A program made the translations under genes and the position numbers. From Thiobacillus sp. (GTDB lineage: Bacteria > Pseudomonadota > Gammaproteobacteria > Burkholderiales > Thiobacillaceae), in the NCBI GenBank assembly GCA_024709165.1, contig JANJXF010000155.1, positions 1 to 34,679 on the forward strand: 34,679 bases of DNA, in the 5' to 3' direction. The notes beneath the pieces are model-generated. The model was not told where the DNA came from. It was given only the letters and a program-made list of their open reading frames with translations, and ran no database searches. Of the stretch, positions 2,185 through 31,251 are shown piece after piece (the stretch's first letter is position 1; the number at the start of each line of letters is the position of its first letter).

Positions 2185-2303
2185 TGCTGGAGCAGTTCAG
2201 ACCCTGGCCCGGCGACCTGGCAGGCGTCGATAACCTGCTGCAAGCTCGCGGCCGTCAGCCGCAGGTCGGCGATCAGCGCCTCGATTCGGCTCGGCCTGTT
2301 CAC
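2004..2303 (-). CDS. Hypothetical protein coupled to kfrA
   Basis: The product is 99 residues, mainly acidic and helical, with no recognised domain. The start is GTG, and its GTGA overlaps the kfrA stop codon, a typical translational-coupling arrangement, so it is the second gene of the kfrA operon. Its 3' 181 bp run antisense to the end of the convergent ORF at 1591–2184. By position it could be a small partner of the KfrA-like protein (IncP-type plasmids carry further kfr genes after kfrA), but I see no sequence likeness that proves this. Confidence 0.65.
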   Translation of the reverse strand: MNRPSRIEALIADLRLTAASLQQVIDACQVAGPGSELLQHYPKMLCELATRWESEAERIDWPEDLPREEVFTPAEVAAIDATDALLDKLRGNGSTGVRR

Positions 2304-2959
2304 TTCTTTCCTCCCTTGACTGAGGGCGCACCAGCGCCCGCCGAAGCGGTCAGTCCTTGAACGGTGCGTTGCAGGGCATCCAACTGCCCCTGCAAGCCCT
2401 CGACGGCCTTGGCCGAGGCCCGAAGCCCAGCCAACTCCTGATCGCGTGCTGCCAGGGCGTTCTGCGCCTCCGCAAGCTGGGCGTCGAGCCGTGCCACCGA
2501 CGCCACCTTCTCCTGAATCGTCGCCTGCTGGGCCGCCGTGCTCATCTCAAGCTCGCGCACACGCTGGGTGAGCGCGTCGATTTGGCCGATCTGCTCTTGC
2601 TCGACGCCTTCCAGCCGGGCGACTTCCGCCTCGGCACCGGCAAGCAGTCCCTCGGCCTTGTCGCGGGAGGCTTCGGCCAGCGCGAGCGGCTCAGCGACGG
2701 CCGCCTTCGCACCATGCAGCGCATGTGCGTACAGGGTCTGCACGAAGTCCCGGCCACGCGCCTCGATGTCGGCGGGCAGATCGACGGCGGCGATCTCGCC
2801 CTTGCGCTTGGCCTCCCACGCTTCGAGGTGCCGCTTCACGGTCGTGTACGAGCCGCCCGTGCGCTCCTGCACGAGCGTCATGCTCGGTTCCTTGCCATCG
2901 GCAACGAGGGCGTCTGCTGCCGCAAATACGGCCTCCTGTGTCGCTACCGGCTTCGCCAT
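2300..2959 (-). CDS. kfrA: KfrA-like plasmid DNA-binding coiled-coil protein
   Basis: The product has 219 residues. Residues ~5–50 form a helix-turn-helix of the KfrA N-terminal type (AAADALVADG … TGGSYTTVKRHLEAW). Residues ~80–205 are Ala/Glu/Gln-rich heptads, a long coiled coil. KfrA proteins of broad-host-range plasmids bind operators at their own promoter and aid stable plasmid maintenance, with the coiled coil mediating multimer formation. An upstream in-frame extension to 3190 is rejected: the ATG at 2959 has a strong AGGGGAG ribosome site 5 nt away, and the extension would cover the promoter and operators. It is followed by a coupled 99-residue gene. It is probably autoregulated through the three boxes at 2975–3012. 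Confidence 0.85.
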   Translation of the reverse strand: MAKPVATQEAVFAAADALVADGKEPSMTLVQERTGGSYTTVKRHLEAWEAKRKGEIAAVDLPADIEARGRDFVQTLYAHALHGAKAAVAEPLALAEASRDKAEGLLAGAEAEVARLEGVEQEQIGQIDALTQRVRELEMSTAAQQATIQEKVASVARLDAQLAEAQNALAARDQELAGLRASAKAVEGLQGQLDALQRTVQGLTASAGAGAPSVKGGKK

Positions 2960-2974
2960 GTCGCTCCCCTTTGC

Positions 2975-3021
2975 ATTACGATAATTACTGTAATTATCGT
3001 AATTACGATAATAGGAAGCAA
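2975..3021 (-). promoter_or_regulatory. kfrA promoter with three operator boxes
   Basis: On the minus strand a -35 (TTGCTT, 3016–3021) and a -10 (GATAAT, 2993–2998) are exactly 17 bp apart. Over them lie three copies of an 11-bp box, ATTACGATAAT: forward at 2975–2985, reverse at 2993–3003 and forward at 3002–3012. Adjacent boxes form a 25-bp palindrome (2977–3001) with one central base and a perfect 20-bp palindrome (2993–3012). The A+T-rich boxes stand out from the GC-rich surroundings. Repression by the KfrA-like protein is the natural inference. Confidence 0.8.
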
Positions 3022-3164
3022 GGGGACGTGATGGTGGTGTCGCCCGTCGCTTGCGGGGTGCGGCCCCTGCAAGGGGCGCCCGCCGATGGCGAGGTTTTTC
3101 ACCGACTTTTGGTGCTGCCGCATAAATAGATGTGAGGCGACTGCCCAGAAAGGAGGTGAAAACA

Positions 3165-3275
3165 ATGGAAATCATCGTCATCAAGCACAACGGCTATCCG
3201 TTCTGCAACAACGAGAACGCCGTGCTGCTCGCAACGGGCATCACGCACCACATCGTCCTGTTGCTCAAGACGTAA
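3165..3275 (+). CDS. 36-residue ORF with very strong ribosome site
   Basis: This short ORF (MEIIVIKHNGYPF…HHIVLLLKT) is preceded by a near-perfect Shine–Dalgarno sequence (AAAGGAGGTG, 3149–3158) six bases before the ATG, much stronger than most in the window. It lies divergent to kfrA, between the kfrA operators and the origin. Seven bases after the stop, a 9-bp stem-loop begins (3282–3306). The peptide has one Cys (C14), a His pair and a hydrophobic end, but no recognised domain. It could be a small regulatory protein or a leader peptide controlling downstream transcription. The ribosome site is clear; any function is a guess. Confidence 0.55.
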   Translation: MEIIVIKHNGYPFCNNENAVLLATGITHHIVLLLKT

Positions 3276-3281
3276 GCCATG

Positions 3282-3306
3282 CGCCCTCGGACTAACGCCG
3301 AGGGCG
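3282..3306 (+). other. 9-bp stem-loop after the small ORF
   Basis: CGCCCTCGG (3282–3290) pairs perfectly with CCGAGGGCG (3298–3306) around a 7-nt loop. No T-run follows, so it is not a classical terminator. It may protect the 3' end of the small ORF's mRNA or act with that ORF as an attenuator. Confidence 0.5.
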
Positions 3307-3521
3307 TCCATCCGGCCCGCATGTTGGTGATGTCGAGCGCCGAGGCGAGGCGGAGGCGTCGTGGCGGCCGGGCCACTCCCATGCCTCAAAAGCGCCTTGC
3401 TGGGCCTCTGCACCTTCGCGCACGTCCGTTTCGAGCAGGGACGGCGGCAGGCCCTCCCTTTTCTAAAGACCAATCGGCCTGTGCGCATCACCAGATGGTT
3501 CACCGGGGCATACCGTGCTTG

Positions 3522-3546
3522 GCCCTGAGTCCGGGGGACTCAGGGC
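3522..3546. repeat. Perfect 11-bp inverted repeat, 3-nt loop
   Basis: GCCCTGAGTCC (3522–3532) and GGACTCAGGGC (3536–3546) are separated by GGG. It is not followed by a T-run. It lies 18 bp from a second stem-loop and may be part of a structured regulatory or transfer region. Confidence 0.6.
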
Positions 3547-3564
3547 TGAGGCGGTAGCGTGAAG

Positions 3565-3587
3565 AAAATCGGCCCAAGCCGATTTTT
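3565..3587. terminator. Bidirectional terminator-like hairpin
   Basis: AAAATCGGC (3565–3573) and GCCGATTTT (3578–3586) form a 9-bp stem with loop CCAA. The T-run on the right and A-run on the left make it a plausible intrinsic terminator in both directions, insulating the origin from transcription out of the kfrA side. Confidence 0.6.
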
Positions 3588-4024
3588 AGCGTAGCCCGCC
3601 GAACACATGCCACGGCGCACAGGTCGTCGAACACCACCAGGCGGCTTGCCCGCCCTTCAAGCAATGTTGCCCCGCAGGGGCCACGATTTGGGGGAGGGGG
3701 AGCCGACTTGATCGGGGGAACCCCCGTAGGGGGTGCCCCCGCCGAAGGCCGCAAGCGGCAGCCGGGCACTGGCGAGGGAAGGATGGCAGCCCAAAGGGGC
3801 GAGACGCCGTAGGTGGCTCGACGCGCAGCGCAACAGCCTTGCCCGCAGCGTCAGCAAAGGGAGCCGCCCGTGTGAGTTTTCGAGTTAGCGTCGAGCGGCA
3901 TCGGTGCGGACGTGGCGGCACCGACCAAGGGTAAGTCTTAAAGGATAAAGACAAGGATAAAAGGATAGGGGTGTAAAAACTCGCTGTTTTTTGCTGTCGT
4001 ATCAACGACATAGCAGACCCCGCC

Positions 4025-4320
4025 CGCGACCCATTCCACCTGCTGCACGTCGAAAGGAGTCCGAAAATTCGTCGACTTATGCACAGCTTTTGCGGCCAGC
4101 AAGAGCTTCCGGCGAGACCTGCGACCCATTCCCCCTGCGATTTCAACGACCCGCGACCCATTCCCCCTGAACTCCTCCGCGACCTGCGACCTATCCCCCT
4201 TGTCCGGCTATGGCACCCGCGAGTCAAACCCCTCGTCAATAGTCGTCCCGCGACCTATCCACCCTGCGACCTGCGACCCATTCCCCCCGATGCTCTGTCT
4301 CACCCGCGACCTATTCCACC
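4025..4320 (+). repeat. Seven iterons, core GCGACCYATTCCMCC
   Basis: Copies start at 4025, 4120, 4152, 4185, 4249, 4272 and 4305. Each has GCGACC followed by CATTCC, TATCC or TATTCC and then CCC or ACC. Extra half-copies (GCGACCT) abut the copies at 4185 and 4272. Spacing is irregular (23–95 bp). The last copy spans the repA stop codon. They are probably binding sites for the RepA initiator. Confidence 0.8.
4077..4085 (+). promoter_or_regulatory. DnaA-box-like site
   Basis: TTATGCACA differs from the consensus DnaA box TTATCCACA at one base. It lies between the A+T-rich repeats and most of the iterons, where iteron origins usually place it. Confidence 0.55.
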
Positions 4321-5567
4321 CGTGGGCGAGGCAGGTGAAGTGTGCTCGCCACGACGTTGCCGGCACGTAGCCACCCGGCACCCGATCCGCCGGTTGACGA
4401 TGGCTGGGTGGCATCTCGTTGGGCGTCACTGCGGCGGCGGTTTGCGGCTTTCTGTTCGGCCGAGAAATCACGGGCAGCTTTGATCGTGTAGGTCACATCC
4501 TCGATTTTGTTGCGGCCGCCTCGGTGTTCTTTCTTGTCGATGCTGTGCAGTGCACCCAGCGATTTCAGCTCATCCCATGCTTCATCAAGTGCCGCGACAG
4601 CATCTCGGACTCGCCCGTAGCCATTCAGCAGTGCGCTGTCGCGCTTGATCGTGCTGAAGCGCATCTCAAACCCGTCGATCATTGATGCCTGCGTGTACTT
4701 GAGGACAAGTTGGCAGAGGAGCCAGCGAGCAAGCTGCGCATCACAATTCATGAGCCGTTGATAGTTGAACTGCCGATAGGTCACCTCATCGATGCTGCGC
4801 GTCACCAGCGGATGGAACTGGGCGAGCCAGCGGGCATCTCGATCAGCTTCGTAGTCGCTGCGGCTCACGCCCGCGAGTGCGGTCAGGTAGGTAGCGCGAG
4901 CGAAGCCTTCTTCGCCGTCAGTGCCCTTGGCGATGATCTCGATGCTGCTGAGCGAGAGGATGTCCAGTCCTTCGACCAATTCGTCGTATCGCAAGCTGTG
5001 CCCCTGCTGCTCCAGCTCTCGCCGGAGACGATGCAACGAAAACCGCACCCCGCTGCGATAGTCCGGTCGGTCAAAGAAGCCCGCCTGCTGCTCGGTGGCC
5101 AACTTCCGCAGGGCGTGTTCAATCAGTTCTTCGCGGGCGCTTGGGTAGTAACTGATGCGGCGGCCATCCGCCGCACGAACTCGTGCGGGATAGATCAAGG
5201 CAGTGAGCTGTCGCTGCCTGTAGTGAAACGGAACCTCAAGAACTTCGAGGAATCCTTCGGGTGTTCGCATGCTGTTCATGCGTGAGCGGGAGATTGTGTA
5301 GCGCGGTATGCAGTCCCACAAGTCGCAAGCGTTCGACAACGCGCTGCGCTGCTGATCCGTGTTCGCCAGAAAGGTCTGGAAGAGGCACAACTGCCGGGCC
5401 TCGAAGGCCCCATCGGGCAGTGGGGCGACAGCGCGACGGCGCGTCGCCTTGGCTCGCTTCCGGCCTTGGCCCGAGGGTGGCGCTGTCGTGCTCTCGGGCA
5501 ATGAGAGACTGGCTTGATGCTCTGCGCCTGGATCGCCCGATTTGCGATCCGTGTCCGGCGCGATCAC
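4311..5567 (-). CDS. repA: Plasmid replication initiator RepA (RPA family)
   Basis: The product is 418 residues from a GTG start. It resembles the replication initiator protein A family: a conserved opening (QLCLFQTFLAN … CDLWDCIPRYTISR), then tandem winged-helix-like regions (YYPSAREELIEHALRKLA; FSLHRLRRELEQQG), and a C-terminal half with FNYQRLMNCDAQLARWL. Such proteins bind iterons and open the plasmid origin. The open frame extends to a TTG at 5636, which would overlap alpA by 73 nt; I prefer the GTG at 5567 because its GTGA overlaps the alpA stop, indicating coupling. The stop codon lies within the last iteron, so initiator and origin form one cassette. The N-terminal ~55 residues are low complexity. 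Confidence 0.8.
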   Translation of the reverse strand: MIAPDTDRKSGDPGAEHQASLSLPESTTAPPSGQGRKRAKATRRRAVAPLPDGAFEARQLCLFQTFLANTDQQRSALSNACDLWDCIPRYTISRSRMNSMRTPEGFLEVLEVPFHYRQRQLTALIYPARVRAADGRRISYYPSAREELIEHALRKLATEQQAGFFDRPDYRSGVRFSLHRLRRELEQQGHSLRYDELVEGLDILSLSSIEIIAKGTDGEEGFARATYLTALAGVSRSDYEADRDARWLAQFHPLVTRSIDEVTYRQFNYQRLMNCDAQLARWLLCQLVLKYTQASMIDGFEMRFSTIKRDSALLNGYGRVRDAVAALDEAWDELKSLGALHSIDKKEHRGGRNKIEDVTYTIKAARDFSAEQKAANRRRSDAQRDATQPSSTGGSGAGWLRAGNVVASTLHLPRPRVE

Positions 5568-5797
5568 GAGCGAGCAGATGTTGAGCGAAGGTCGGCCTTT
5601 TGCATCAGCCAGGCGGAGACCTCCGCTTCGATCCAACCCACGGCGCGCACCCCGAGACGGACAGGACGCGGGAAGCTACCCTCTCGGATGAGAAAGTAGA
5701 TGCCTGATTTCGTTAAGCCGGTTCTCTTCTCGACCAGTGACCGACGAAGGATGACGACATCCTGTTGTTCTTTGTTGTTTTCCACTGTGAACCTCAC
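5564..5797 (-). CDS. AlpA-family DNA-binding regulator
   Basis: The product has 77 residues. It has the winged helix-turn-helix signature of AlpA/excisionase-like proteins: VEKRTGLTKSGIYFLIREGSFPRPVRLG followed by VGWIEAEVSAWL. AlpA proteins activate integrase genes or direct excision of prophages and islands; some only regulate neighbouring genes. The GTG at 5797 is taken as start, and a second GTG at 5785 with a GAGG ribosome site is equally possible. Its stop overlaps the repA start, so it heads the repA operon. Control of replication or of integrase expression are both plausible. Confidence 0.8.
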   Translation of the reverse strand: MRFTVENNKEQQDVVILRRSLVEKRTGLTKSGIYFLIREGSFPRPVRLGVRAVGWIEAEVSAWLMQKADLRSTSARS

Positions 5798-5893
5798 CGC
5801 ACCTCGATGAACGATGCGATCACAGTAAAAGCGGGCCAGAAAAGCAGAGAGAACGAGTTTCGACCGCTTCGCCAGCGGCGGATCACACGGTTG

Positions 5894-6703
5894 TCAGGGA
5901 ATGCTATTCATTAAGGTAGGGAACCGTTTCTCCCAATACGCGACGAGTTCCTGCTGCTTGCGCGCCTCGCGCGCTTCGACGCCAGCCAAGGCGGTGAAGA
6001 AATCAGCGGGCAGGTCATCCGGTGTGTCCAACCAAATCCCACCGGCAAGCAACTCATTGGCGGCTTCCCATGCGTTCACCATCTCCACTATGGGATGAAG
6101 GCGCATTTGCACTCGTTGCAGCGATCTCACCAGGGCGCGGGTCCGCTCCTCATCTGGCAAGCAAGCAACTTGCTCAATGGCCCGCTGCATGAGCGCGGCC
6201 GTCCACCGCGCCAAGATGTCGCGCATCTTGTGGAACTTCATTGGCCGCCCGTCCTGCGGCAAGCCTCGCATCTGCGGCCTCGCTGGCAACTCAGCGGGGC
6301 TTTGATCTTCGTCCGAGTTCAAGGGTGGCAAAGGCGGGGCTTGGATGAGGAAAGGATCGGTGACAGCGAGTTGTCGGATCGCTTCCTTCTTACCGTACTT
6401 GCCGTACCACGTGCGCCATTCCCTCTTCTCGTGAACGTCGCGGCCCCGGTGTGCGACATAGGCCCGCCACTGGGCACCCAAGTTGTCGCCGTCCAGGCGT
6501 GTCGTACGCGCAGTGCGCGATGACAAAAGCTGTAGCTCAAGCTCGCTTTGGGTCACGCCTTCCATGCTGCCCTCGATGTAGCGGAGAAGCTCAGCTACCA
6601 GCGGGCCAGGAATGCTTCGATGGTGGTTCTGCCGCGCCTCGGCACGGTAGGCGGCCTGATAGCGAATGGCCTCAAAGACAAGTGCTTCGTCAATTGGCGG
6701 CAT
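5894..6703 (-). CDS. Hypothetical protein translationally coupled to the integrase
   Basis: The product has 269 residues, with the start chosen at an ATG (6703) that overlaps the last 14 nt of the integrase gene. I do not recognise a family. It is soluble, rich in Arg, Glu and Trp, with predicted helices at both ends (EALVFEAIRYQAAYRAEARQ; EAREARKQQELVAYWEKRF) and a Pro-rich linker in the middle (about 118–145). No membrane segments, metal motifs or P-loop are visible. Its coupling to the integrase suggests a role in recombination or its control. Confidence 0.65.
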   Translation of the reverse strand: MPPIDEALVFEAIRYQAAYRAEARQNHHRSIPGPLVAELLRYIEGSMEGVTQSELELQLLSSRTARTTRLDGDNLGAQWRAYVAHRGRDVHEKREWRTWYGKYGKKEAIRQLAVTDPFLIQAPPLPPLNSDEDQSPAELPARPQMRGLPQDGRPMKFHKMRDILARWTAALMQRAIEQVACLPDEERTRALVRSLQRVQMRLHPIVEMVNAWEAANELLAGGIWLDTPDDLPADFFTALAGVEAREARKQQELVAYWEKRFPTLMNSIP

Positions 6704-7928
6704 CGCTGGTACTCCCTGCGTGAGCCAAGGCGGCAAGATGGTCGGCCCATGCCTGCATGATCTCGCGCCGCTCGTTTAACAACAGGGCCTTGTTGTACGT
6801 AGCCCGCACCCGGTTGCTTTCAACATGCGCCAGTTGGCGTTCGATGGCGTCCGGTCGGAAGCCCTGCTCGTTGGCCCATGTTGAAAAGGTGGTGCGCCAG
6901 CAGTGCGGTGTCGTGCGCTCGCCGAGGTTCATGTCCCGCATCGCGTAGGTCAGCCGGTTCGGTGTCGTGAAGCCTTCGCCGCTACGATGTGGAAACAGGT
7001 AGCGCCCAGCCCCAGTGATGGGGCGTAGCTCTTCAAGCAGCTTTAGGACTGGCTCGGAGAGCGGCGAAACGTGGTCGCGCCGCGCTTTCATCTTGGCTGC
7101 CGGCCGCCGCCATAGCTTCCCCTCGGCGTCGAACTCGCTCCACTCCGCATCGGCAGCCTCGCCGGGGCGGCAAGCGGTGAATGCAATGAGGCGAAGACAA
7201 AGGGCTGTCTCGGGATAGCCTCTGTAGGCACGCAGCGCGCGATAGAAGGCGCGAATCTGGTCGGCCGTCAGCACGGCCTTGCTTTGGCTCGACGGAATTT
7301 TCAGCAGGCCACGCAGACCGGGGATGGGATTGGAGTCAACGAGTCCCCTCACGACTGCGTGCTGGAAAATCGCCGACAGGTCTCCTTTGACGTGGATGCC
7401 CGCCCAAGCACCGTATGCCTTGCATGCCTCCAAGATTGGCCGGATTTCTTTGGCGCTAATCTCGGTGATGGGTAGCTCATCGAGCTTGGGGGCGAGGTAC
7501 TTCCGAATGCGGGACTCCTTCGCCCGGTAGGAGCCCAGCGTATAGCTCGCCTTCACCTCGGCCAGATATGCGGCGGAGACCTTGGCAAACGAGATTTCCT
7601 GGGCCAGCGCCTCGGCGTGCTTGCGGGCTGCTGCGGCGTCGATGTTCCGTTGCCGCTCGTCCTTGCGATGCTGAGAAGGATTGATGCCTTGTTTCGCTAG
7701 ATCACGAGCTGCGTCGCGAGCAGTGCGCGCGTCGGCTAGGCCAACCTCTGGATAAGAGCCGATAGCGAACAGGTTCTCCTTCCCGTTGAGCCGGAACTTC
7801 CAGCGCCACAGCTTGCTGCCTGAGGGCTGAATCAACAGAAAAAGACCGCCGCCGTCGCTGAGCTTGTAGGGCTTCGCGTCGGGCTTGGCGGTCCTGATCT
7901 TGGCGTCGCTGAGAAGGTCTTTGGGCAT
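6690..7928 (-). CDS. int: P4-type tyrosine integrase
   Basis: The product is 412 residues from an ATG with GGAG 10 nt upstream; a longer frame to 7967 is not needed. An N-terminal arm-binding domain (LSDAKIRTAKPDAKPYKLSDGGGLFL) is followed by a core-binding SAM-like domain (about 100–190) and the catalytic domain with the conserved R (TACRPGEA), K (KMKARRDH), HxxR (HCWRTTF), H (QLAHVE) and Tyr (RATYNKA). It catalyses site-specific insertion and excision of the element. Its 5' end faces the ychF side, as is usual for an integrase beside its attachment site. It appears intact. No tRNA lies at this junction; the nearest (tRNA-Gln) is 3.5 kb away. Confidence 0.93.
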   Translation of the reverse strand: MPKDLLSDAKIRTAKPDAKPYKLSDGGGLFLLIQPSGSKLWRWKFRLNGKENLFAIGSYPEVGLADARTARDAARDLAKQGINPSQHRKDERQRNIDAAAARKHAEALAQEISFAKVSAAYLAEVKASYTLGSYRAKESRIRKYLAPKLDELPITEISAKEIRPILEACKAYGAWAGIHVKGDLSAIFQHAVVRGLVDSNPIPGLRGLLKIPSSQSKAVLTADQIRAFYRALRAYRGYPETALCLRLIAFTACRPGEAADAEWSEFDAEGKLWRRPAAKMKARRDHVSPLSEPVLKLLEELRPITGAGRYLFPHRSGEGFTTPNRLTYAMRDMNLGERTTPHCWRTTFSTWANEQGFRPDAIERQLAHVESNRVRATYNKALLLNERREIMQAWADHLAALAHAGSTSDAAN

Positions 7929-8013
7929 CCTGGGTCTCCGTCGAGAGAGTGGCGTACCCCCACTCATTTCGGCTCATACCCCAAAGACTACCCCAATTTT
8001 TACTGGAATGCCA

Positions 8014-23053: not shown

Positions 23054-23712
23054 TCAGCTTCAGCCAGGTCAGCAAGCGTTATCCTGGCGGACACGAAGCG
23101 CTCACGGGCGTCGATATCGCCATCGCGCAGGGCGAGCTGATCTTTCTCACCGGACATTCCGGTGCGGGCAAGAGCACCTTCCTCAAGCTCATCGCCGCCA
23201 TCGAGCGGCCCACCCGCGGCGTGGTCTCGGTAAGCGGGCAGAACGTCGGTCGCCTGTCGCGCCGCGCCGTCCCCTACCTGCGCCGCAACATCGGTCTGGT
23301 GTTCCAGGATCACAAGCTGCTGTTCGACCGCAGCGCCATCGAGAACGTCGTGCTGCCGCTCGACATCGCCGGCGTCGAGCGGCGCGAATCGATGAAGCGC
23401 GCGCGCGCCGTGCTCGACAAGGTCGGCCTGCTGGCCCGTGAAAAGGCCAATCCGGTGAGCCTGTCCGGCGGCGAACAACAACGCCTGTGCATCGCCCGCG
23501 CGCTGGTGGCGCGTCCCGCGCTGCTGCTCGCCGACGAACCCACCGGCAATCTCGACGCGGGCTACGCCGCCGACATCATGACCATGTTCCGCGATTTCCA
23601 TCAGGTCGGCACCACCCTGGTCATCTCCACCCATGACGACCGTGCCATCGCCGCGCTGGGCGGGCGCATCCTGCACTTCGACCATGGCCATATCGCGGAG
23701 GTCAACCCATGA
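23050..23712 (+). CDS. ftsE: Cell-division ATP-binding protein FtsE
   Basis: The product has 220 residues. It is the ABC ATPase that, with FtsX, links the divisome to activation of cell-wall hydrolases. Seen are Walker [10 protein letters not shown], the Q-loop in [11 protein letters not shown], signature LSGGEQQR, Walker [10 protein letters not shown] and the switch His in STHDD. The ATG overlaps the ftsY stop, and its own stop overlaps the ftsX ATG, both as ATGA. Confidence 0.96.
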
Positions 23713-24617
23713 CCGGCTGGCTGCGGCACCAGAAACGCGCGTTCATCGTTGCGCTGCGCCACCTGTCCACCCAACCGCTGTCGACGTTGCTGACCGCACT
23801 GGCGATGGGCGTCGCCCTGAGCCTGCCCGCCGGCCTCTACCTCGCACTCGACAATCTCGGCCGGCTTGCCGGCGAGCTGCCCGCCCGGCCGGAAATCAGC
23901 ATCTACCTCGCCGCCGACGCCAGCGCCGCGCAGAAAGCCGCCCTGGCCGAGCGCTTGAAGAAACCCGACATCGAAGGCGCACGCTTCGTCACGCGCGACC
24001 AGGCGCTGGCTGCACTTGCCTCGGAGCAAGGGCTCGCCGACCTCGCCGCCGGGCTGGCGGAAAACCCCCTGCCCGACGCCTGGATCGTGCGCCCGCGCGA
24101 CGCCACGCGCGACGCCCTCATCCCCCTGCACGACGAACTCGCAGTCTTGCCCGGCGTGGCCGAAACCCAGCTCGACAGCGCCTGGGCCGAGCGTCTGCAA
24201 GCGCTGCTCGCCATCGGCCGCACCGGCGTGTGGCTGCTGGCCGCACTGTTCGCCGTCGCGCTCGCCGCCATTTCCAGCAACGCCATCCGCGCCCAGGTGC
24301 TCGCCCGGCGCGACGAGATCCTGGTCAGCCGCCTGATCGGCGCCACCGACCGCTACGTCCGCCGCCCCTTCCTCTACCTCGGCGCCGTCCAGGGCCTGCT
24401 TGGCGGCTTCGCCGCCGCCACCGTGCTTGCCGGCGCCGGCGCCATCCTGCGCGGCCCCATCGAACAGCTCGCCACCCTGTATGGCTCCGCCTGGCGCCTG
24501 CATCCCCCCGCCGCGCCCGAAATCCTCGCCCTGTTCGTCTTCACCGCCCTGTTCAGCTGGCTCGGCGCCTGGGGGTCGGTGATGCGGACGCTGCGGCGGG
24601 TGGAAGGGCCGGGCTGA
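23709..24617 (+). CDS. ftsX: Cell-division permease-like protein FtsX
   Basis: The product is 302 residues. It is an inner-membrane protein with a cytoplasmic N-terminus, a first TM (about 25–48), a periplasmic domain (about 50–165; EISIYLAADA … DAWIVRPRD) and three further TMs near residues 170–190, 220–245 and 270–290. It acts with FtsE in septation. It ends the ftsYEX operon and is convergent with the cytochrome operon. In many relatives rpoH would follow directly. Confidence 0.95.
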   Translation: MTGWLRHQKRAFIVALRHLSTQPLSTLLTALAMGVALSLPAGLYLALDNLGRLAGELPARPEISIYLAADASAAQKAALAERLKKPDIEGARFVTRDQALAALASEQGLADLAAGLAENPLPDAWIVRPRDATRDALIPLHDELAVLPGVAETQLDSAWAERLQALLAIGRTGVWLLAALFAVALAAISSNAIRAQVLARRDEILVSRLIGATDRYVRRPFLYLGAVQGLLGGFAAATVLAGAGAILRGPIEQLATLYGSAWRLHPPAAPEILALFVFTALFSWLGAWGSVMRTLRRVEGPG

Positions 24618-24703: not shown

Positions 24704-24736
24704 AAAAACGGCCCGCCGCGACACGGCGGCGGGCCG
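24704..24736 (-). terminator. Strong intrinsic terminator of the electron-conduit operon
   Basis: A perfect 11-bp GC stem (24709–24719 with 24726–24736, 6-nt loop) runs on the minus strand into TTTTT. It lies 28 bp past the porin stop and also separates the operon from the convergent ftsX. Confidence 0.85.
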
Positions 24737-24763
24737 GGCTTTGCATTCAGCGTGCCGTCCGGT

Positions 24764-27052
24764 TCAGAAGCGGTAGGACACCGACACGCCGACGAGGTGC
24801 GCCTTGTAGTCCGGGCTTTCCTGATTGGTGCCAATGACGTTGCCCATGGTGTTCGACAACACACCGTCATAGGCCCAGTCTTTCGAGCGGAAACGCTCAT
24901 ACACATACTTCAGGTTGACCGACACGTCCTTCTGCACCCAATAGCGCCCGAAGAGATCGATCCGGTCGAGCGTGGACGTAACATCGGGCAATGGCAGGGC
25001 AGGCGTGGCCCCGAAGGCCGCGCCGGTTGCGACATCGATCTTGCCCGTCGAATCCGCACGGGTCAAATCGCCGCCGAACTCGAACTTGCCGGACGGTTTG
25101 TAGCGCAAACCCGCGCCGACTGTGACGGTGCGATCCGACGTGTCGACCGTCCAGAACCAGCCCGGATTGAGGTAGTTTGCCTTCACCGCGCCCAGCTGCA
25201 CCGATTGCTGATCGCTTTCATATTTTTCGAGAGAGGCGAACAGGTAGGTCGTGAGCGCATCGCTGGCGGCAAAACTGGCATCGAAGTTCGCTGCCCAGCC
25301 CGTAGCCTCGCGCAGGCCCAGCTCGGACTTGTGATAGTCGTCCTTGTTGTAGTCCACACGGAACTGGAGATCGACCCGCTCCGCGGGCGAAACGTTGGCG
25401 TAGACGCCAAGCTTGTCGCGCTTTCTCGGCGCCAGGAAGAATTTCTTCTGCGTCGGCACGTTGTCCCACAGGCCGTCGTCGGTAGGGCTTATTGGGAGGA
25501 TGCCCGCGATATACGGCGCGTAAGTGTAACTGGCGAGGAAAGGCGCGCCGGCATTGTAGGCGGATGTCCTCCGATCCGAGTAGGCGTATTTGATGCCGCC
25601 ACCCATCGTCTCGCTGAACCGGTGGTTGATCCCTGCCTTGACCGTGTGCTCGCTCTCCCGGTCGATGGCTTCGAAGGTTTTCTTGACCCAGTCGTATTCG
25701 TAGCCGAACTTCAACTTCGTCGGCGCCGCCAGCCTGTAATCGAATTCCGCCGAGATCTGCTGCCGGGTGCTGCTGCCGGGCAGGTTGGTGCGTACCCGGG
25801 AACCTTCCGCAGCGGTGGGGACCGCGCCGGCGCCCTGATTCTGCGAATCTCCGCCGATATACCAGTACTGCGACTGAGGCGTGTCGTTGTCCCGATCGTC
25901 GTACAGGTAGGCGGCGTTGAATTGCAACGCGGGTGTCAGCCTGGAGGTGAGCTTGAGATCGGCATGCGTGGTCGTCACCTCGCCGTCGAGCGAGTTGCGT
26001 GGCAACGGCACGTTCACGGCAAGTGCCGGGTTGACCGAGTACGGCAGGTAAGGCTCGTTCTGGGTCGCGCGCCCAATGCTGAAGCTGCCGGAAATCCGGG
26101 TGTCCTTGGAGTAGCTGTAGCCGCCCGAGGCGTTGATCTGGTGGAACTGGTTGTCCGGTGGCAACCCGAGCTGACCGTAACCGAGCGGGTACCCGACCGC
26201 CGGATTGCCCCACGCCGTGCCTGCGGCATTGAGATAGGGATTCTGCCAGGCAAGTGCCGGATTGGCGTTCTTGAAGAACGATCCGTAATAACCGAACTGG
26301 AGCTGCAGCTTTTCGCCGGCATGACGGATGATGGCCTCGAACTGGTCGGTCGTATAATCGACAGGCTCGGGCAGAATCACCGCGCGCGGGTTGCCGCCAC
26401 TGTTTCCAATGACGGCGCCGATGAAGCGGTTACCCTCCTTGGTTTCGCGCTTGACATTGAGTGCGGCATCCCAACCGGGCACCAGCTGTTTGGTGAACCC
26501 CAAGCCCTGCGCCTTGCGCAGGGTTTCGACATCAAAGGAACGCATGCTGCCGTTGAGCTGCGTCATGCCTGCCGTGTTGTTTGTCGCGACCCAGGTACTG
26601 GGCAGCACCAGCAGGGTGTCGCCGGGATTCACGAAGGGTGTCTGGTAGCTGTCCGAAAACAATTTTGGCAGCTGACTGTATTCAAGACGCACGCCAAAAT
26701 TGCCTTGCCGGCCCGCCTCGACTTTCAGGCTGCGGGAATCCAGACCCAGATCGCGTCCCTCGAACGCAAAGTAACCCCCATCGTCCTTGTTGCGCTGCAC
26801 GCCGCGCACATTGGCGATCAGGTTGCTGCCTTCGTCCAGGCCGGTGAAGTCGCCATATTTGTTGTTGCCACTCGCCGACACATGGCCGTATCCCAGTTCG
26901 ACCTCACTGTCCGGATGCAGCAGGCGGCGGAGCTCTTCCTCTTCCTCGTCGTCGGCCGCCCAGGCGCTGGTGGTGAAACCCGCACCCAAGGCCAGTGCAA
27001 TGGCGACGGCCAGCACATTGTGTGCGAAACACTTGTCAATGTCGTGTGTCAT
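24764..27052 (-). CDS. mtoB: MtrB/PioB/MtoB-type outer-membrane porin
   Basis: The product is 762 residues. It has a signal peptide (cleavage near SAWA-ADDE), then an acidic stretch DDEEEEE, then many amphipathic beta strands with alternating polar and aromatic residues, ending in Phe (VSVSYRF), as outer-membrane barrels do. MtrB/PioB-type barrels form a sheath through which a multiheme cytochrome conducts electrons across the outer membrane. The gene for such a cytochrome lies just upstream (17-bp gap), with a GGGAG ribosome site before this ATG. No CXXC is present near the mature N-terminus, unlike Shewanella MtrB. The family assignment is strong; whether electrons flow in or out is not shown. 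Confidence 0.88.
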   Translation of the reverse strand: MTHDIDKCFAHNVLAVAIALALGAGFTTSAWAADDEEEEELRRLLHPDSEVELGYGHVSASGNNKYGDFTGLDEGSNLIANVRGVQRNKDDGGYFAFEGRDLGLDSRSLKVEAGRQGNFGVRLEYSQLPKLFSDSYQTPFVNPGDTLLVLPSTWVATNNTAGMTQLNGSMRSFDVETLRKAQGLGFTKQLVPGWDAALNVKRETKEGNRFIGAVIGNSGGNPRAVILPEPVDYTTDQFEAIIRHAGEKLQLQFGYYGSFFKNANPALAWQNPYLNAAGTAWGNPAVGYPLGYGQLGLPPDNQFHQINASGGYSYSKDTRISGSFSIGRATQNEPYLPYSVNPALAVNVPLPRNSLDGEVTTTHADLKLTSRLTPALQFNAAYLYDDRDNDTPQSQYWYIGGDSQNQGAGAVPTAAEGSRVRTNLPGSSTRQQISAEFDYRLAAPTKLKFGYEYDWVKKTFEAIDRESEHTVKAGINHRFSETMGGGIKYAYSDRRTSAYNAGAPFLASYTYAPYIAGILPISPTDDGLWDNVPTQKKFFLAPRKRDKLGVYANVSPAERVDLQFRVDYNKDDYHKSELGLREATGWAANFDASFAASDALTTYLFASLEKYESDQQSVQLGAVKANYLNPGWFWTVDTSDRTVTVGAGLRYKPSGKFEFGGDLTRADSTGKIDVATGAAFGATPALPLPDVTSTLDRIDLFGRYWVQKDVSVNLKYVYERFRSKDWAYDGVLSNTMGNVIGTNQESPDYKAHLVGVSVSYRF

Positions 27053-27069
27053 GTCGGTTCTCCCTGTGG

Positions 27070-28002
27070 TTACCGGGTATAACGCGCGCCGGACGGATGG
27101 TTGGTGCCATGGACCTGCGTGTGGCAGTTGAGGCAGGCACGGAGCAGCTGCTGTTGGGCCGGTGCAACCCCTCCCTGAGAGACAGGCAGACCCCGTCCGC
27201 TATAGGCAGTGCCCGGATGCTGCGTGAAATCGTGGCATTGCTGACACAGATAGGGTGGTTTGGTCTTCAGCAACGACGCGTGATTCGAGCCGTGCGGTGT
27301 ATGGCAGTTGAGACAGTTGTCGCTGGCGGGCGGATGCTCCCACAGGAAGGGACCGCGCTTTTCCGCATGACAGGTGTAGCACGTCTCGACCACAGTGCTC
27401 TTCGCCAGCTGTTTCGGCCCGGTGGAACCATGCGGATTGTGACAGTCGGAACAGACCACCTTGCCTTCCTTGATCGGATGGTGGGAGGCGCGGAAGGACT
27501 GGGCGCGCTGCTCTTTGTGGCAGGCGTAGCAGACTTCCGGCTGCGTCTGCTTGCTGAGCACCTTGTCGTGCTGGGTGTGCACCTGGTGGCAGGACGCGCA
27601 CGCAAGATTGCCATTGGCGTGCTGGCTGCTTGCCCAGTGCATGCGCTTGCCACCCTTGTGGCAGCCCAGACAGGCCTCGTTCTGCGCGGCGACCGGAGTG
27701 AATGATCCTCTCCTGAAGCTGCGGTCGACTTTCGGCCGATCTTTCAGCCCCTGCGGATTCTCAGCATGCAGGGTACTTTCGCCGTGACAGCCGACACAGC
27801 CCAGATTGCGCCCGTCTGCCGCCACGCCATGCCGGGTCTTGGCGATGGCGAGCACCGGAGCAGAGTCCGTTTCGTCGTGGCAGCGGGTGCACTTGGCATC
27901 GCCTTTGTAAATCACGTCGGCGGCTGCCGCGTCGACGACAAAGCCAAACGCCAGAAACATACCCAGCGTCCAAGTCATGAGTGAATGTCGCATGCCGATC
28001 AT
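27070..28002 (-). CDS. mtoA: Decaheme c-type cytochrome, MtrA/MtoA (DmsE) family
   Basis: The product is 310 residues from an ATG with a GGGGAG ribosome site. A signal peptide ends near VVDAAAA. Ten CXXCH motifs are present: CTRCH, CVGCH, CLGCH, CASCH, CYACH, CSDCH, CYTCH, CLNCH, CQQCH and CLNCH. The length matches MtrA/MtoA rather than the N-terminally extended PioA. These proteins sit inside the MtrB-type barrel as a heme wire across the outer membrane, used for Fe(II) oxidation (Mto, Pio) or metal reduction (Mtr). The next gene encodes the barrel. An upstream in-frame extension to 28095 is rejected because it lacks a ribosome site and precedes the signal peptide. Confidence 0.93.
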   Translation of the reverse strand: MIGMRHSLMTWTLGMFLAFGFVVDAAAADVIYKGDAKCTRCHDETDSAPVLAIAKTRHGVAADGRNLGCVGCHGESTLHAENPQGLKDRPKVDRSFRRGSFTPVAAQNEACLGCHKGGKRMHWASSQHANGNLACASCHQVHTQHDKVLSKQTQPEVCYACHKEQRAQSFRASHHPIKEGKVVCSDCHNPHGSTGPKQLAKSTVVETCYTCHAEKRGPFLWEHPPASDNCLNCHTPHGSNHASLLKTKPPYLCQQCHDFTQHPGTAYSGRGLPVSQGGVAPAQQQLLRACLNCHTQVHGTNHPSGARYTR

Positions 28003-28102
28003 GGTTCTCCCCTTTTTCAGGAACGCTCCTTCAAATCTTCCAACAACCCGGACTGCATCAGATGCCGCAAACTGCGCTGCACGTCCGGTCCTCAATTGAT
28101 CT

Positions 28103-28687
28103 TTAATTGATCTTTATGTCCTGCGGCCCCAGATCGCCTTCCGGTTCTTCATGGGCGATCGCGAAATGGCAGTCGATACACGCCATCTTCTCGGCCTTGG
28201 CCTTGGCATGACGGGACTGCGCCTTCTCGGTCGTATTCGCTTTATCCAGATCGTGGCAGGAACGACATTCGCGGGAATCGGTAGCTTTCATGTAGGTCCA
28301 CACGCGCACGGCCAGTTCGTGGCGCTTGGCCTCGAATTTCTCGCGGGTATCTATCGACCCGGTGACGAAGTGTCCCCACAGCTCGCGTACTGCACCGATC
28401 TTGCGGAAATACAGGGGAATCCCCACGCGCGGCACATGGCAGTCCGGGCAGGTGGCGCGCACGCCGGTACGGTTGACGTCATGAACCGTATCCTTGTGCT
28501 CGTCGGCCAGGTAGCTCATTTCGTGACAGGCTGTCGTGCAGAATTTCTCCGTACCGGTCAGCAGCAGCGCCGTGCTCGTCGCGCCCACGATGACCAATCC
28601 GATGGCAATCCCGCCGATCAGTACCAGTGCGGGGCCAAGAGGTCTGGCACACCAGCGTCTGAGCCGCTCTCCAGTTTTTTTCAGCAT
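28103..28687 (-). CDS. cymA: NapC/NirT/CymA-type tetraheme quinol-linked cytochrome
   Basis: The product is 194 residues. One N-terminal membrane helix (about 19–43) anchors a periplasmic domain with four heme sites: CTTACH (50–55), CPDCH (80–84), CRSCH (141–145) and CIDCH (170–174). The first is CX3CH rather than CXXCH, and is followed by Glu-Met as in NapC-type proteins, whose Met may ligate that heme. This family exchanges electrons between membrane quinol and periplasmic partners. Between a soluble cytochrome gene and a decaheme gene, it is the likely link of the surface conduit to the quinone pool. The symbol marks the functional type, not a proven ortholog. Confidence 0.88.
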   Translation of the reverse strand: MLKKTGERLRRWCARPLGPALVLIGGIAIGLVIVGATSTALLLTGTEKFCTTACHEMSYLADEHKDTVHDVNRTGVRATCPDCHVPRVGIPLYFRKIGAVRELWGHFVTGSIDTREKFEAKRHELAVRVWTYMKATDSRECRSCHDLDKANTTEKAQSRHAKAKAEKMACIDCHFAIAHEEPEGDLGPQDIKIN

Positions 28688-28712
28688 GCACCTTGCCCCC
28701 CCATGTCGAACG

Positions 28713-29054
28713 TCAGAGCGACAATATCCAGTCGATCAGATTCTTGATCTCCGCATCGCTGCCTTTGAGGATTTTGTGCTCTTCCTCCTTGCCCTCGACC
28801 TTGACCTTCGGACCGGTGGTCATGTGTGTGCGCAGCTTCTGTACCGCATCCGCCTCGCCCTTGCGCTTTTCCGCCACTTCCTTGTAGGACGGTCCGTCCT
28901 TCTTCTTGCTCAATGCGTGGCACTTGAAGCAGTCATTTTTTTTCAGCAGGGCCTTCGCAGCATCTTCATCGGCTGCGTGGACCGACAAGGCACCCGCCGA
29001 CAGACCGACGATCGCCGCGGCAAGAGTGATTTTCTTCATCAAAAGCTTGTGCAT
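28713..29054 (-). CDS. Periplasmic monoheme cytochrome c, MtoD-like
   Basis: The product is 113 residues, with a GGAGAG ribosome site before the ATG. A signal peptide (KKITLAAAIVGLSAGALSVHA) leads to a small class I cytochrome c with one CFKCH. C-terminal helix residues (EIKNLIDWILSL) match the usual last helix. Soluble monoheme proteins such as MtoD of Sideroxydans carry electrons across the periplasm beside MtoAB–CymA systems, and this gene heads such an operon. The mature part is very Lys-rich, which suits docking to acidic partners such as the porin's acidic N-terminus; that pairing is only a suggestion. Confidence 0.88.
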   Translation of the reverse strand: MHKLLMKKITLAAAIVGLSAGALSVHAADEDAAKALLKKNDCFKCHALSKKKDGPSYKEVAEKRKGEADAVQKLRTHMTTGPKVKVEGKEEEHKILKGSDAEIKNLIDWILSL

Positions 29055-29234
29055 CGGGCTCTCCTTGAAAAATGCAGCTGTCGAAGCGCATTCAGTTTTT
29101 TTATAGGCCAGGTTGCCTGACTTAACGATAGCGCCCTTCGTGAGGCAGTTCTTGTCTGGAAGGGAACGATCTTTTGCCCAGAAATGAACAGCCAGACAAG
29201 ACGACGCAAGCTTTCAGTCACGGCTCGCCCGGGC
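29055..29234 (-). promoter_or_regulatory. Probable promoter region of the electron-conduit operon
   Basis: The 180 bp between the AraC-type gene and the monoheme cytochrome gene is A+T-richer than its flanks and holds no ORF. On the minus strand TATAAA, inside a run of A, is a possible -10, with TCGTTA 17 bp upstream as a weak -35; a weak -35 would fit an activator-dependent promoter. A short CAGG…CCTG dyad lies in the spacer. No clear terminator separates it from the AraC gene. Confidence 0.35.
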
Positions 29235-30182
29235 TCAGCCCGCGCGAACTTCACATGGCGACAAGCCGAAATGTTTTCGGAAACTCCGCGAGAAATGCGC
29301 CTGATCGCTGAACCCCCAGGCATGGGCCACCTTGCAGATCGACAAGCGACATCCCGGCTGTTCGAGCTGCTCGCGGGCGCGTACGAGACGTTCCTTCTTC
29401 ACCCAGTTCATGAGCGAGAGCGGCTCGTCCTCGAAAAGACGATGGATGTAGCGCGGCGAAAGCTTGACGCCCGTGGCAATGACGTCGATGTGCAACGCGG
29501 GATGCCGCAAATGCGCGAGGGCGTACTGTTTGACCCGCTCCAGGTGATAGGCGCGCAGGCCCGGCGACCGGGGAATGTGACCGGGTTGCCGCGAACACAG
29601 GGCGGCACGCAGAAGTCCAGTCGTGAGAAAGGGCAAGTCTTCCGAGCCCGGTCCATGGAAGATGCCGGGATGTGCAGCAAGCGCGCGCAGGTGCTCTGCG
29701 AACACAGCGGGGGCACCCGCTTCGGTAGGCATGGCAACCCCGACAAGCCCCGACCAGTCCGTGATTGCCGGGGCGAGCATCGATTCCGGCACGACCATGC
29801 AAATCTGCCGGTAATCCTCGTGAAAGTGCAGGCTGTTGGCTGCGCCGACGCGATGAATGACAAGATCGCCAGGTCCGATAAGCGCTTCCCTGCCCTCGGC
29901 ACGCACGGTGCAACGGCCTTGCAGTTGAAGATGGGCGACGATGTTGGGTGCTCCCGAGCCGCCCTCGTGCCGTGCGCTCAGATGGGCGGTACCCGCGCCC
30001 TTGACGAGCACCAGGGGCGCGGCCGGTGCCATGTCGATTTCCATGTTGATGCCAAACGGCCGATGCTTTTCCGGCTCGACCCTGTATTCGGCACCGAACA
30101 ACGAAGCGGTACGATCCTGCCACCAGTCGACACGCTCGGCGGCGGCGATGGTGTCCGTAGTCAGCAACAAGTCCTCGAGCAT
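29235..30182 (-). CDS. AraC-family transcriptional regulator
   Basis: The product is 315 residues from an ATG with GGGGAG upstream; the longer frame would need a TTG. The N-terminal half (about 25–190) resembles the AraC-binding-like domain of the FeaR/TfdR-type activators (HLQLQGRCTVRAEGREALIGPGDLVIH). The C-terminal ~100 residues hold two helix-turn-helix motifs (DVIATGVKLSPRYIHRLFEDE; VAHAWGFSDQAHFSRSFRKHFG). It precedes the cytochrome operon on the same strand, so it is the first candidate for its regulator. The inducer is unknown; this N-terminal type often senses small organic molecules, so a link to the conduit is not certain. Confidence 0.88.
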   Translation of the reverse strand: MLEDLLLTTDTIAAAERVDWWQDRTASLFGAEYRVEPEKHRPFGINMEIDMAPAAPLVLVKGAGTAHLSARHEGGSGAPNIVAHLQLQGRCTVRAEGREALIGPGDLVIHRVGAANSLHFHEDYRQICMVVPESMLAPAITDWSGLVGVAMPTEAGAPAVFAEHLRALAAHPGIFHGPGSEDLPFLTTGLLRAALCSRQPGHIPRSPGLRAYHLERVKQYALAHLRHPALHIDVIATGVKLSPRYIHRLFEDEPLSLMNWVKKERLVRAREQLEQPGCRLSICKVAHAWGFSDQAHFSRSFRKHFGLSPCEVRAG

Positions 30183-30232: not shown

Positions 30233-30350
30233 GCTGGTGCGCTCCTTTGCCCATCCTGCACCAGCGCAGCGTGAACTATGCGAAGCCTGCGCTGCACTGT
30301 CAAGCGGTTGCGACAGCGGCAGGCGCAAGCACGAGGAACTCACGGCCGGA

Positions 30351-30377
30351 TTGGCACTCCGAGACCGAGAGTGCTAA
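30351..30377 (+). promoter_or_regulatory. CIRCE (HrcA operator) over the rpoH promoter
   Basis: TTGGCACTC–9 bp–GAGTGCTAA matches the CIRCE consensus TTAGCACTC–N9–GAGTGCTAA with one change and the exact spacer. A sigma-70-like promoter lies within it: TTGGCA (30351–30356) and TAAACT (30375–30380), 18 bp apart. HrcA bound here would block rpoH transcription until heat shock. Confidence 0.9.

Positions 30378-30405: not shown

Positions 30406-31251
<846 letters not shown>

Follow-up and report, generated by a model that had tools for sequence, protein, structure and literature searches.

The 34,679-nt Thiobacillus sp. contig JANJXF010000155.1 (assembly GCA_024709165.1), hereafter the window, carries at positions 24704-30182, between ftsX and rpoH, a five-gene block encoding the parts of an Mto-type outer-membrane electron conduit. 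On balance, we favour the reading of this block as an acquired, mosaic Mto-type conduit in an autotrophic Thiobacillus, likely used for electron uptake from Fe(II) or minerals. The original prediction, an earlier annotation of the same DNA, had placed a complete conduit between ftsX and rpoH behind an AraC-type regulator, and profile and structure-relative matches recovered all of these parts on the minus strand. In the sense of transcription, the AraC-type regulator is followed by a monoheme cytochrome, a NapC-type tetraheme, a decaheme, an MtrB/PioB barrel and a terminator-like hairpin. The block is transcribed opposite to both flanks, which lie on the plus strand, and its ends are consistent, with the hairpin on the left and the start codon of the regulator on the right. 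The host is a 2.65 Mb draft genome of 219 contigs, 87% complete and probably a metagenome-assembled genome (MAG), of which the window is contig 213.

The evidence for acquisition comes from the ftsX-rpoH interval in other Thiobacillus genomes. Rhodocyclales had been suggested as the group for this comparison, but the genome groups with Thiobacillus (Nitrosomonadales, Thiobacillaceae), which rules out a Rhodocyclales origin. FtsX was detected in 53 of the 56 genomes of the genus, and the ftsX-side interval was compared in 40 of the other 52; both genes were matched in 32 intervals, while of the remaining eight the contig ends in two and the stretch examined shows no rpoH in six. The gap between the matched ends measures 92-186 bp in 31 of the 32 comparable genomes, against 5,788 bp in the window and 8,391 bp in genome G010, where the interval (L044 1752-9626) holds hsdR-, hsdM- and hsdS-like type I restriction genes, a GmrSD-type gene and a 5'-nucleotidase. 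A core-protein tree of 33 rows joins the window, G014 and G010 at 100/100 and places G042 elsewhere, and the same slot in the three sister genomes is occupied by mto genes (window), empty (G014) or filled with restriction genes (G010). The GC content of the block is 0.605, compared with 0.668 outside it from base 8001 of the window onwards. The block is thus not present at this site in all relatives, and the near-empty intervals, together with the other cargo in G010, argue that it was acquired and that the site has been used more than once. On this genomic comparison the block is an accessory insert in a core interval, as had been proposed, and the interval is possibly an insertion hot spot in the clade of the window, G014 and G010.

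The same five-gene order occurs in three genomes, the window, G014 and G042, and the two halves of the block disagree about how these are related. For the core proteins FtsX, RpoH and CcoG (the last encoded between the FixH and cbb3 subunit III genes beyond rpoH by what is presumably ccoG), identity is 82/96/95% between the window and G014 and 66/84/76% between G014 and G042. For the regulator, MtoD and NapC it is 85/85/88% between G014 and G042 versus 55/65/67% between the window and G014, whereas MtoA and MtoB reach 81/68% between the window and G014 versus 59/32% between G014 and G042. Third codon positions of G014 and G042 agree at 76-80% in the front half versus 47-62% in core genes. In 100-column windows, identity between G014 and G042 is 64-93% from the beginning of araC as far as the MtoA signal peptide, then drops to 38-76%. 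Between G014 and the window it is about 40% at the signal peptide but 68-86% over the greater part of mature MtoA, so that the sliding identities cross at the end of the MtoA signal peptide. The trees repeat the conflict: in a tree of 36 hand-picked loci and the window, a single clade of the three MtoA proteins was rejected (approximately unbiased (AU) test, p 1.5e-5), in contrast to NapC, where the three fall within one clade at 100/99. MtoA of the window and G014 falls into a group (98/96) with three MAGs, two from Gallionella/Gallionellales and one betaproteobacterial; the same rows are also nearest to MtoB of the window, in a group of five rows with support of 100. These comparisons give the front half (regulator, MtoD and NapC) a history at odds with that of the MtoAB half, the change-over falling where the mtoA signal peptide ends; transfer among Thiobacillus lineages with replacement of the conduit half would fit as the simplest account. 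Recombination of the halves at the signal peptide would mean that the outer conduit is exchangeable as a unit.

All five block proteins have Pfam matches, and NCBIfam models exceed their cut-offs for the decaheme and the barrel only; the top NCBIfam model of the regulator, FeaR, scores 107 bits, under its cut-off of 199. The decaheme belongs to the MtrA/MtoA/PioA/DmsE family and the adjoining barrel to the MtrB/PioB/MtoB family by the scores listed in the table below, and their closest solved relatives are chains A and B of 6r2q, which excerpts of PMC10654088 identify as Shewanella baltica MtrAB. The decaheme has ten CXXCH motifs, whereas 5,000 shuffles of its sequence averaged 0.10 and never exceeded 2. 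The candidate start of mtoA is the ATG at 28002, preceded by GGGGAG. The monoheme cytochrome has MtoD (4xxl) as its top PDB match, followed by an engineered c555 trimer (6.7e-19) and the next single-domain match (7.6e-9). MtoD is a bis-histidine cytochrome according to the available text of PMC4412085; the EEEH stretch aligns in the block protein, which adjoins mtoAB, and bis-histidine ligation is predicted for it from this alignment. The expected heme tally of 1+4+10 is right for the monoheme and the decaheme, and that of the NapC-type protein reaches four only when an odd motif is counted: the label tetraheme is conditional because its fourth motif is CX3CH (CTTACH), the other three being CXXCH.

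The NapC-type protein belongs to the NapC/NirT family but does not reach the narrower TIGR02161 model (178.8 bits vs a cut-off of 310.6). In a tree of 46 rows, from which L043 and L094 were excluded as long branches, NapC proteins of the type encoded upstream of the decaheme form a clade of 13 at 100/99 that includes the three from Thiobacillus and stands apart from the ImoA/Sideroxydans-type NapC; the clade stays separate after the addition of 12 other Thiobacillus NapC rows. Joining the Thiobacillus three with seven rows of the Sideroxydans-type clade was rejected (AU p 1.4e-56), and the gene lies before mtoA, not after mtoB, so the block tetraheme is not an orthologue of ImoA/CymA(ES-1). 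At heme I the motif is CTTACH in the window, CTTSCH in G014 and G042 and CGTACH in G081; of the 38 distinct NapC rows listed, the other 35 carry CXXCH at this place. When 399 genomes of the order were searched by pattern, the CX3CH motif turned up in five, NapC-like in four and not in one. ImcH quinol oxidases likewise carry an atypical CX3CH adjoining their membrane part, as stated in sections of PMC6295460. A second group of CX3CH NapC proteins (L275, L277, L278) was also seen; in G081 and G209 the NapC gene has a small monoheme cytochrome gene downstream of it, and in G069 the 3 kb seen contains none.

Across the genus, a decaheme over the TIGR03508 cut-off is present in 6 of the 56 genomes, the window included, and several MtoA clades are represented; G011 has no TIGR03508 match. 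The G014 block lies elsewhere in the chromosome, between a nap/flavocytochrome region and cytochrome-maturation genes (named from their open reading frames (ORFs)). A wider survey covered 98 other decaheme loci, the window and the duplicate stretches L032 and L036 being excluded; these are best hits and the sample is therefore biased, and contig ends truncate some of them. MtoB was found in 96 of the loci and a same-strand MtoD within 3 kb in 70, while NapC lies upstream in 14, downstream in 30 and was not seen in 54. A blastp relative of the regulator occurs in two, G014 and G042. MtoD is also upstream in 13 of the 14 loci with NapC upstream of the decaheme, and G036 (L213 8287-10734) has the MtoD-NapC pair and no MtoAB in the 19 kb examined; there a further cytochrome c and an ORF of 262 aa with no Pfam match come after the pair. 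In a further G014 locus (L214 398-2389), MtoD and NapC precede a very divergent ten-heme protein, no MtoB match occurs in the 14 kb examined, and the locus perhaps represents another conduit type.

In function, MtoA inside MtoB would, by analogy with their families, take up electrons from Fe(II) or a mineral surface and conduct them across the outer membrane, and MtoD, as a predicted bis-histidine monoheme, would pass them onward across the periplasm. One possible sink is of high potential, the cbb3 oxidase encoded beside rpoH, where FixH and cbb3 subunit III genes follow; electrons may also, or instead, travel via NapC to the quinone pool, to supply nitrate reduction and, by reverse electron flow, CO2 fixation. 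The host genome has over-cut-off matches to RuBisCO, SoxB and NarG. Uptake is the most likely direction, because the host is an autotroph, no MtrC was found and NarG and cbb3 can serve as sinks. According to the available portion of PMC13390432, PmcA, a His/Met monoheme, and not MtoD, interacts with ImoA in Sideroxydans lithotrophicus ES-1, and ES-1 MtoD (+155 mV) is proposed to deliver its electrons to a sink of high potential; in the part of PMC12016527 that is accessible, growth on magnetite gave detectable ES-1 MtoA and dissolved Fe(II)-citrate did not. As the block has neither ImoA nor a second monoheme, MtoD would either serve the oxidase branch alone or partner NapC, and the occurrence of the two genes as a pair, also without MtoAB in G036, favours partnering; MtoD and the block NapC thus probably interact directly, which MtoD and ImoA do not in Sideroxydans. 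Tentatively, we hypothesize that Mto conduits consist of two exchangeable cassettes, an inner one (regulator, MtoD and NapC) that is retained and an outer one (mature MtoA and MtoB) that recombination at the mtoA signal peptide swaps as a unit. In the Thiobacillus type, MtoD would be the direct partner of an inner-cassette NapC whose quinone-side heme has CX3CH and whose quinone interface differs from that of ImoA, perhaps being adapted to quinone reduction.

The conduit might also work outward, passing electrons from thiosulfate or sulfide through quinol, NapC, MtoD and MtoAB to Fe(III), humics or an electrode; we hold this unlikely, if far from negligible. The host has SoxB, CymA is a quinol oxidase replaceable by ImoA (PMC13390432, in part), and CymA-type homologues occur in both Fe(III) reducers and Fe(II) oxidisers (excerpts of PMC6295460). 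Against these stand the better acceptors NarG and cbb3, the potential of ES-1 MtoD, which suits a high-potential sink, and the heme inventory: no further ORF with at least three CXXCH occurs in the window by six-frame count, and the OmcA/MtrC model TIGR03507 has no match in the 87% complete host genome.

Several observations weigh against uptake by an acquired, mosaic conduit. Its direction is not written in the sequence, as the original prediction had recognised, because MtoA and PioA form no function-specific clade separate from MtrA in the available text of PMC8805035, and the absence of MtrC is provisional given the completeness of the genome. In six of the 40 intervals, no rpoH follows within about 9 kb of ftsX though the contig continues, so that adjacency of the two genes is common and not universal. 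As to the mode of insertion, the two tested edge stretches have no exact repeat of at least 8 bases in common, and no integrase lies inside the block; no stretch downstream of mtoB common to the window and G014 was found either. The third codon positions of MtoA/MtoB agree at only 55% between the window and G014, versus 74-84% in core genes; the back halves are therefore not plain vertical orthologues, and a single transfer does not suffice. The evidence for the mosaic comes from three draft genomes, all of them fragmented, and the switch point in G014 could be an assembly chimera; the longest exact match across the mtoA region between the window and G042, which stand in for the true parents, is 17 bases. 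G014 and G042 have 47 exact bases in common where mtoA starts, and no more than 14 from 16340 onward. Two NapC genes upstream of a decaheme, L096 and L214, fall outside the 13-row clade, although with the added Thiobacillus rows they join its side (95/88 and 87/72), and CX3CH NapC also occurs outside the clade (G081, G069, G209). Finally, G034, titled T. denitrificans, has its own MtoD-MtoA-MtoB locus from a different MtoA clade; the conduit is therefore not missing from everything bearing that name.

A single ancestral acquisition in Thiobacillus, followed by vertical inheritance and movement within the chromosome only, would account for the five-gene order and CX3CH motif shared by the window, G014 and G042. 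It is improbable, because the similarities of the front and back halves contradict the core tree in different ways; the decahemes are also confined to few genomes of the genus and spread over several MtoA clades, although many of the 56 genomes are incomplete and absences are uncertain. An assembly artefact, whether through the false joining of foreign DNA into the ftsX-rpoH interval or through chimeric loci in the relatives, draws on the fragmentation of the three key drafts; we consider it very improbable, since flanks and block are continuous with intact genes and G010 carries a different insert in the same interval. An extracellular reductase of the DmsEF kind is barely credible, its support being limited to the NCBIfam name of TIGR03508 ('DmsE family'), a model that also scores decahemes of mto-type loci over its cut-off: no molybdenum reductase is among the block genes, and grouping with L272, the only decaheme met near a molybdoenzyme-like gene and a long branch, was rejected (AU p 0.0024) in trees built without an authentic Shewanella DmsE.

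Table. Features of the block and its flanks, with positions in the window.
Feature	Position	Strand	Evidence
ftsX, left flank	23709..24617	+	TIGR00439 265.6 bits (cut-off 255)
Intrinsic terminator-like hairpin closing the block	24709..24736	-	11 pairs, all G-C; T tail
mtoB, outer-membrane barrel of MtrB/PioB family	24764..27052	-	TIGR03509 2e-148, 495.8 bits (cut-off 240); PF11854 6.7e-155, 517.6 bits (cut-off 23); 6r2q_B 2e-53
mtoA, decaheme of MtrA/MtoA/PioA family	27070..28002	-	10 CXXCH; TIGR03508 279.2 bits (cut-off 192.2); 6r2q_A E 8.2e-70
NapC/NirT-type tetraheme, upstream-NapC clade	28103..28687	-	PF03264 2.4e-58, 197 bits (cut-off 24); 3 CXXCH + 1 CX3CH
Codons of F-C-T-T-A-C-H-E-M, CX3CH at heme I where CXXCH is usual	28517..28543	-	Motif reading
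mtoD-like monoheme cytochrome c	28713..29054	-	4xxl E 2.4e-29; EEEH stretch as in MtoD
AraC/FeaR-like regulator	29235..30182	-	PF12833 2.9e-18; PF14525 2.3e-12; ATG at 30182
Sigma-70-like promoter before the regulator	30275..30303	-	TTGACA-17-CATAGT, 10/12
rpoH, right flank, own inverted repeat in front	30406..31251	+	TIGR02392 409.7 bits (cut-off 323.1)

The hairpin had been called a strong terminator; the call rests on the strength of its stem and on its place and not on count, because it is one of six terminator-like sites in 7.5 kb, where shuffles give 6.5. Sigma-70-like promoter sites number two, with 1.2 expected. On the other side of the insertion, an inverted repeat before rpoH (30351-30377) has one mismatch and was matched in none of 100 shuffles, and similar repeats are visible before rpoH in congeners. 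This repeat is CIRCE-like and possibly places rpoH under HrcA control; as the repeat is kept on the rpoH side, rpoH probably retains its own control. Far from the block, window positions 2300-7967 encode a KfrA_N plasmid-type DNA-binding protein and a phage-type integrase (Arm-DNA-bind_3) beside a YchF-type GTPase gene, and are probably an integrated element.

The literature searched yielded no description of a Thiobacillus mto block, of the clade of upstream NapC proteins or of a conduit swap, subscription journals being mostly outside the search. T. denitrificans ATCC 25259 oxidises Fe(II) and is stated, in the available parts of PMC3753534 and PMC11963766, to lack homologues of MtoA, MtoB, CymA(ES-1), PioA and Cyc2, which makes its Fe(II) route an open question; the accessible text of a 2018 paper (PMC6172326) gives no extracellular electron transfer pathway as reported for Thiobacillus. 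A congener that carries the whole conduit as a separable block makes a comparison with and without it possible. Related species appear to have rebuilt the wire by swapping its outer half, and because the inner half stayed fixed, such an apparent swap amounts to an experiment by nature on which parts have to fit each other. Through its altered first heme motif, the NapC offers a handle on whether heme I affects the direction of electron flow.

Among known systems, ImcH of Geobacter shares with the block NapC only the CX3CH motif by the membrane part; it differs in having mostly three transmembrane motifs and 5-9 further CX2CH, and in that no mtrAB or mtoAB was found beside it, according to sections of PMC6295460. 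The MtrCAB/CymA system of Shewanella resembles the block in its MtrA and MtrB families and NapC-family partner, but the block lacks the outer decaheme MtrC/OmcA, in the window as in the genome search. A wider decaheme/barrel tree took in 30 loci of the betaproteobacterial set (31 were picked, L094 being lost to a length limit) and 20 further loci; the block decaheme lies across a branch (87/94) from six gammaproteobacterial rows with an MtrC-like neighbour, as judged by ten hemes and 730-850 residues. Shewanella MtrA/DmsE references were sought among 369 genomes of the class, where no match to the 6r2q_A letters exceeded 54%. A mobile, modular mtrCAB has already been described (PMC8805035, in part). 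PioABC of Rhodopseudomonas palustris TIE-1 likewise combines a decaheme and a porin for electron uptake; compared by gene content, with PioA outside the trees, the block differs in having no HiPIP gene (PioC), none being found among its genes, the part of the genome covered. The absence of both MtrC and HiPIP from the block agrees with the original prediction.

Mto clusters of iron oxidisers have been described as mtoABD plus CymA or MtoC (excerpts of PMC5566968), and it was to the MtoABD-CymA parts list that the block had been equated. This equation fails, since the tetraheme is not ImoA/CymA(ES-1) and one monoheme is present, so that the full ES-1 list of MtoA, MtoB, MtoD, ImoA and PmcA is not matched; a PmcA-like second monoheme is absent from the block, the stretch searched, as judged without a PmcA sequence. 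ES-1 itself was sought by MtoD letters among the 399 genomes and not met (best match 83%), and the comparison was made through Sideroxydans MAGs as stand-ins. Unlike ES-1 Mto, the block has the order mtoD-napC-mtoA-mtoB with an AraC-type regulator in front, and its NapC comes from another clade with CX3CH at heme I. What it has in common with the ES-1 system is the joint presence of MtoA, MtoB and MtoD relatives with a NapC-family tetraheme, and a conduit that does without MtrC.

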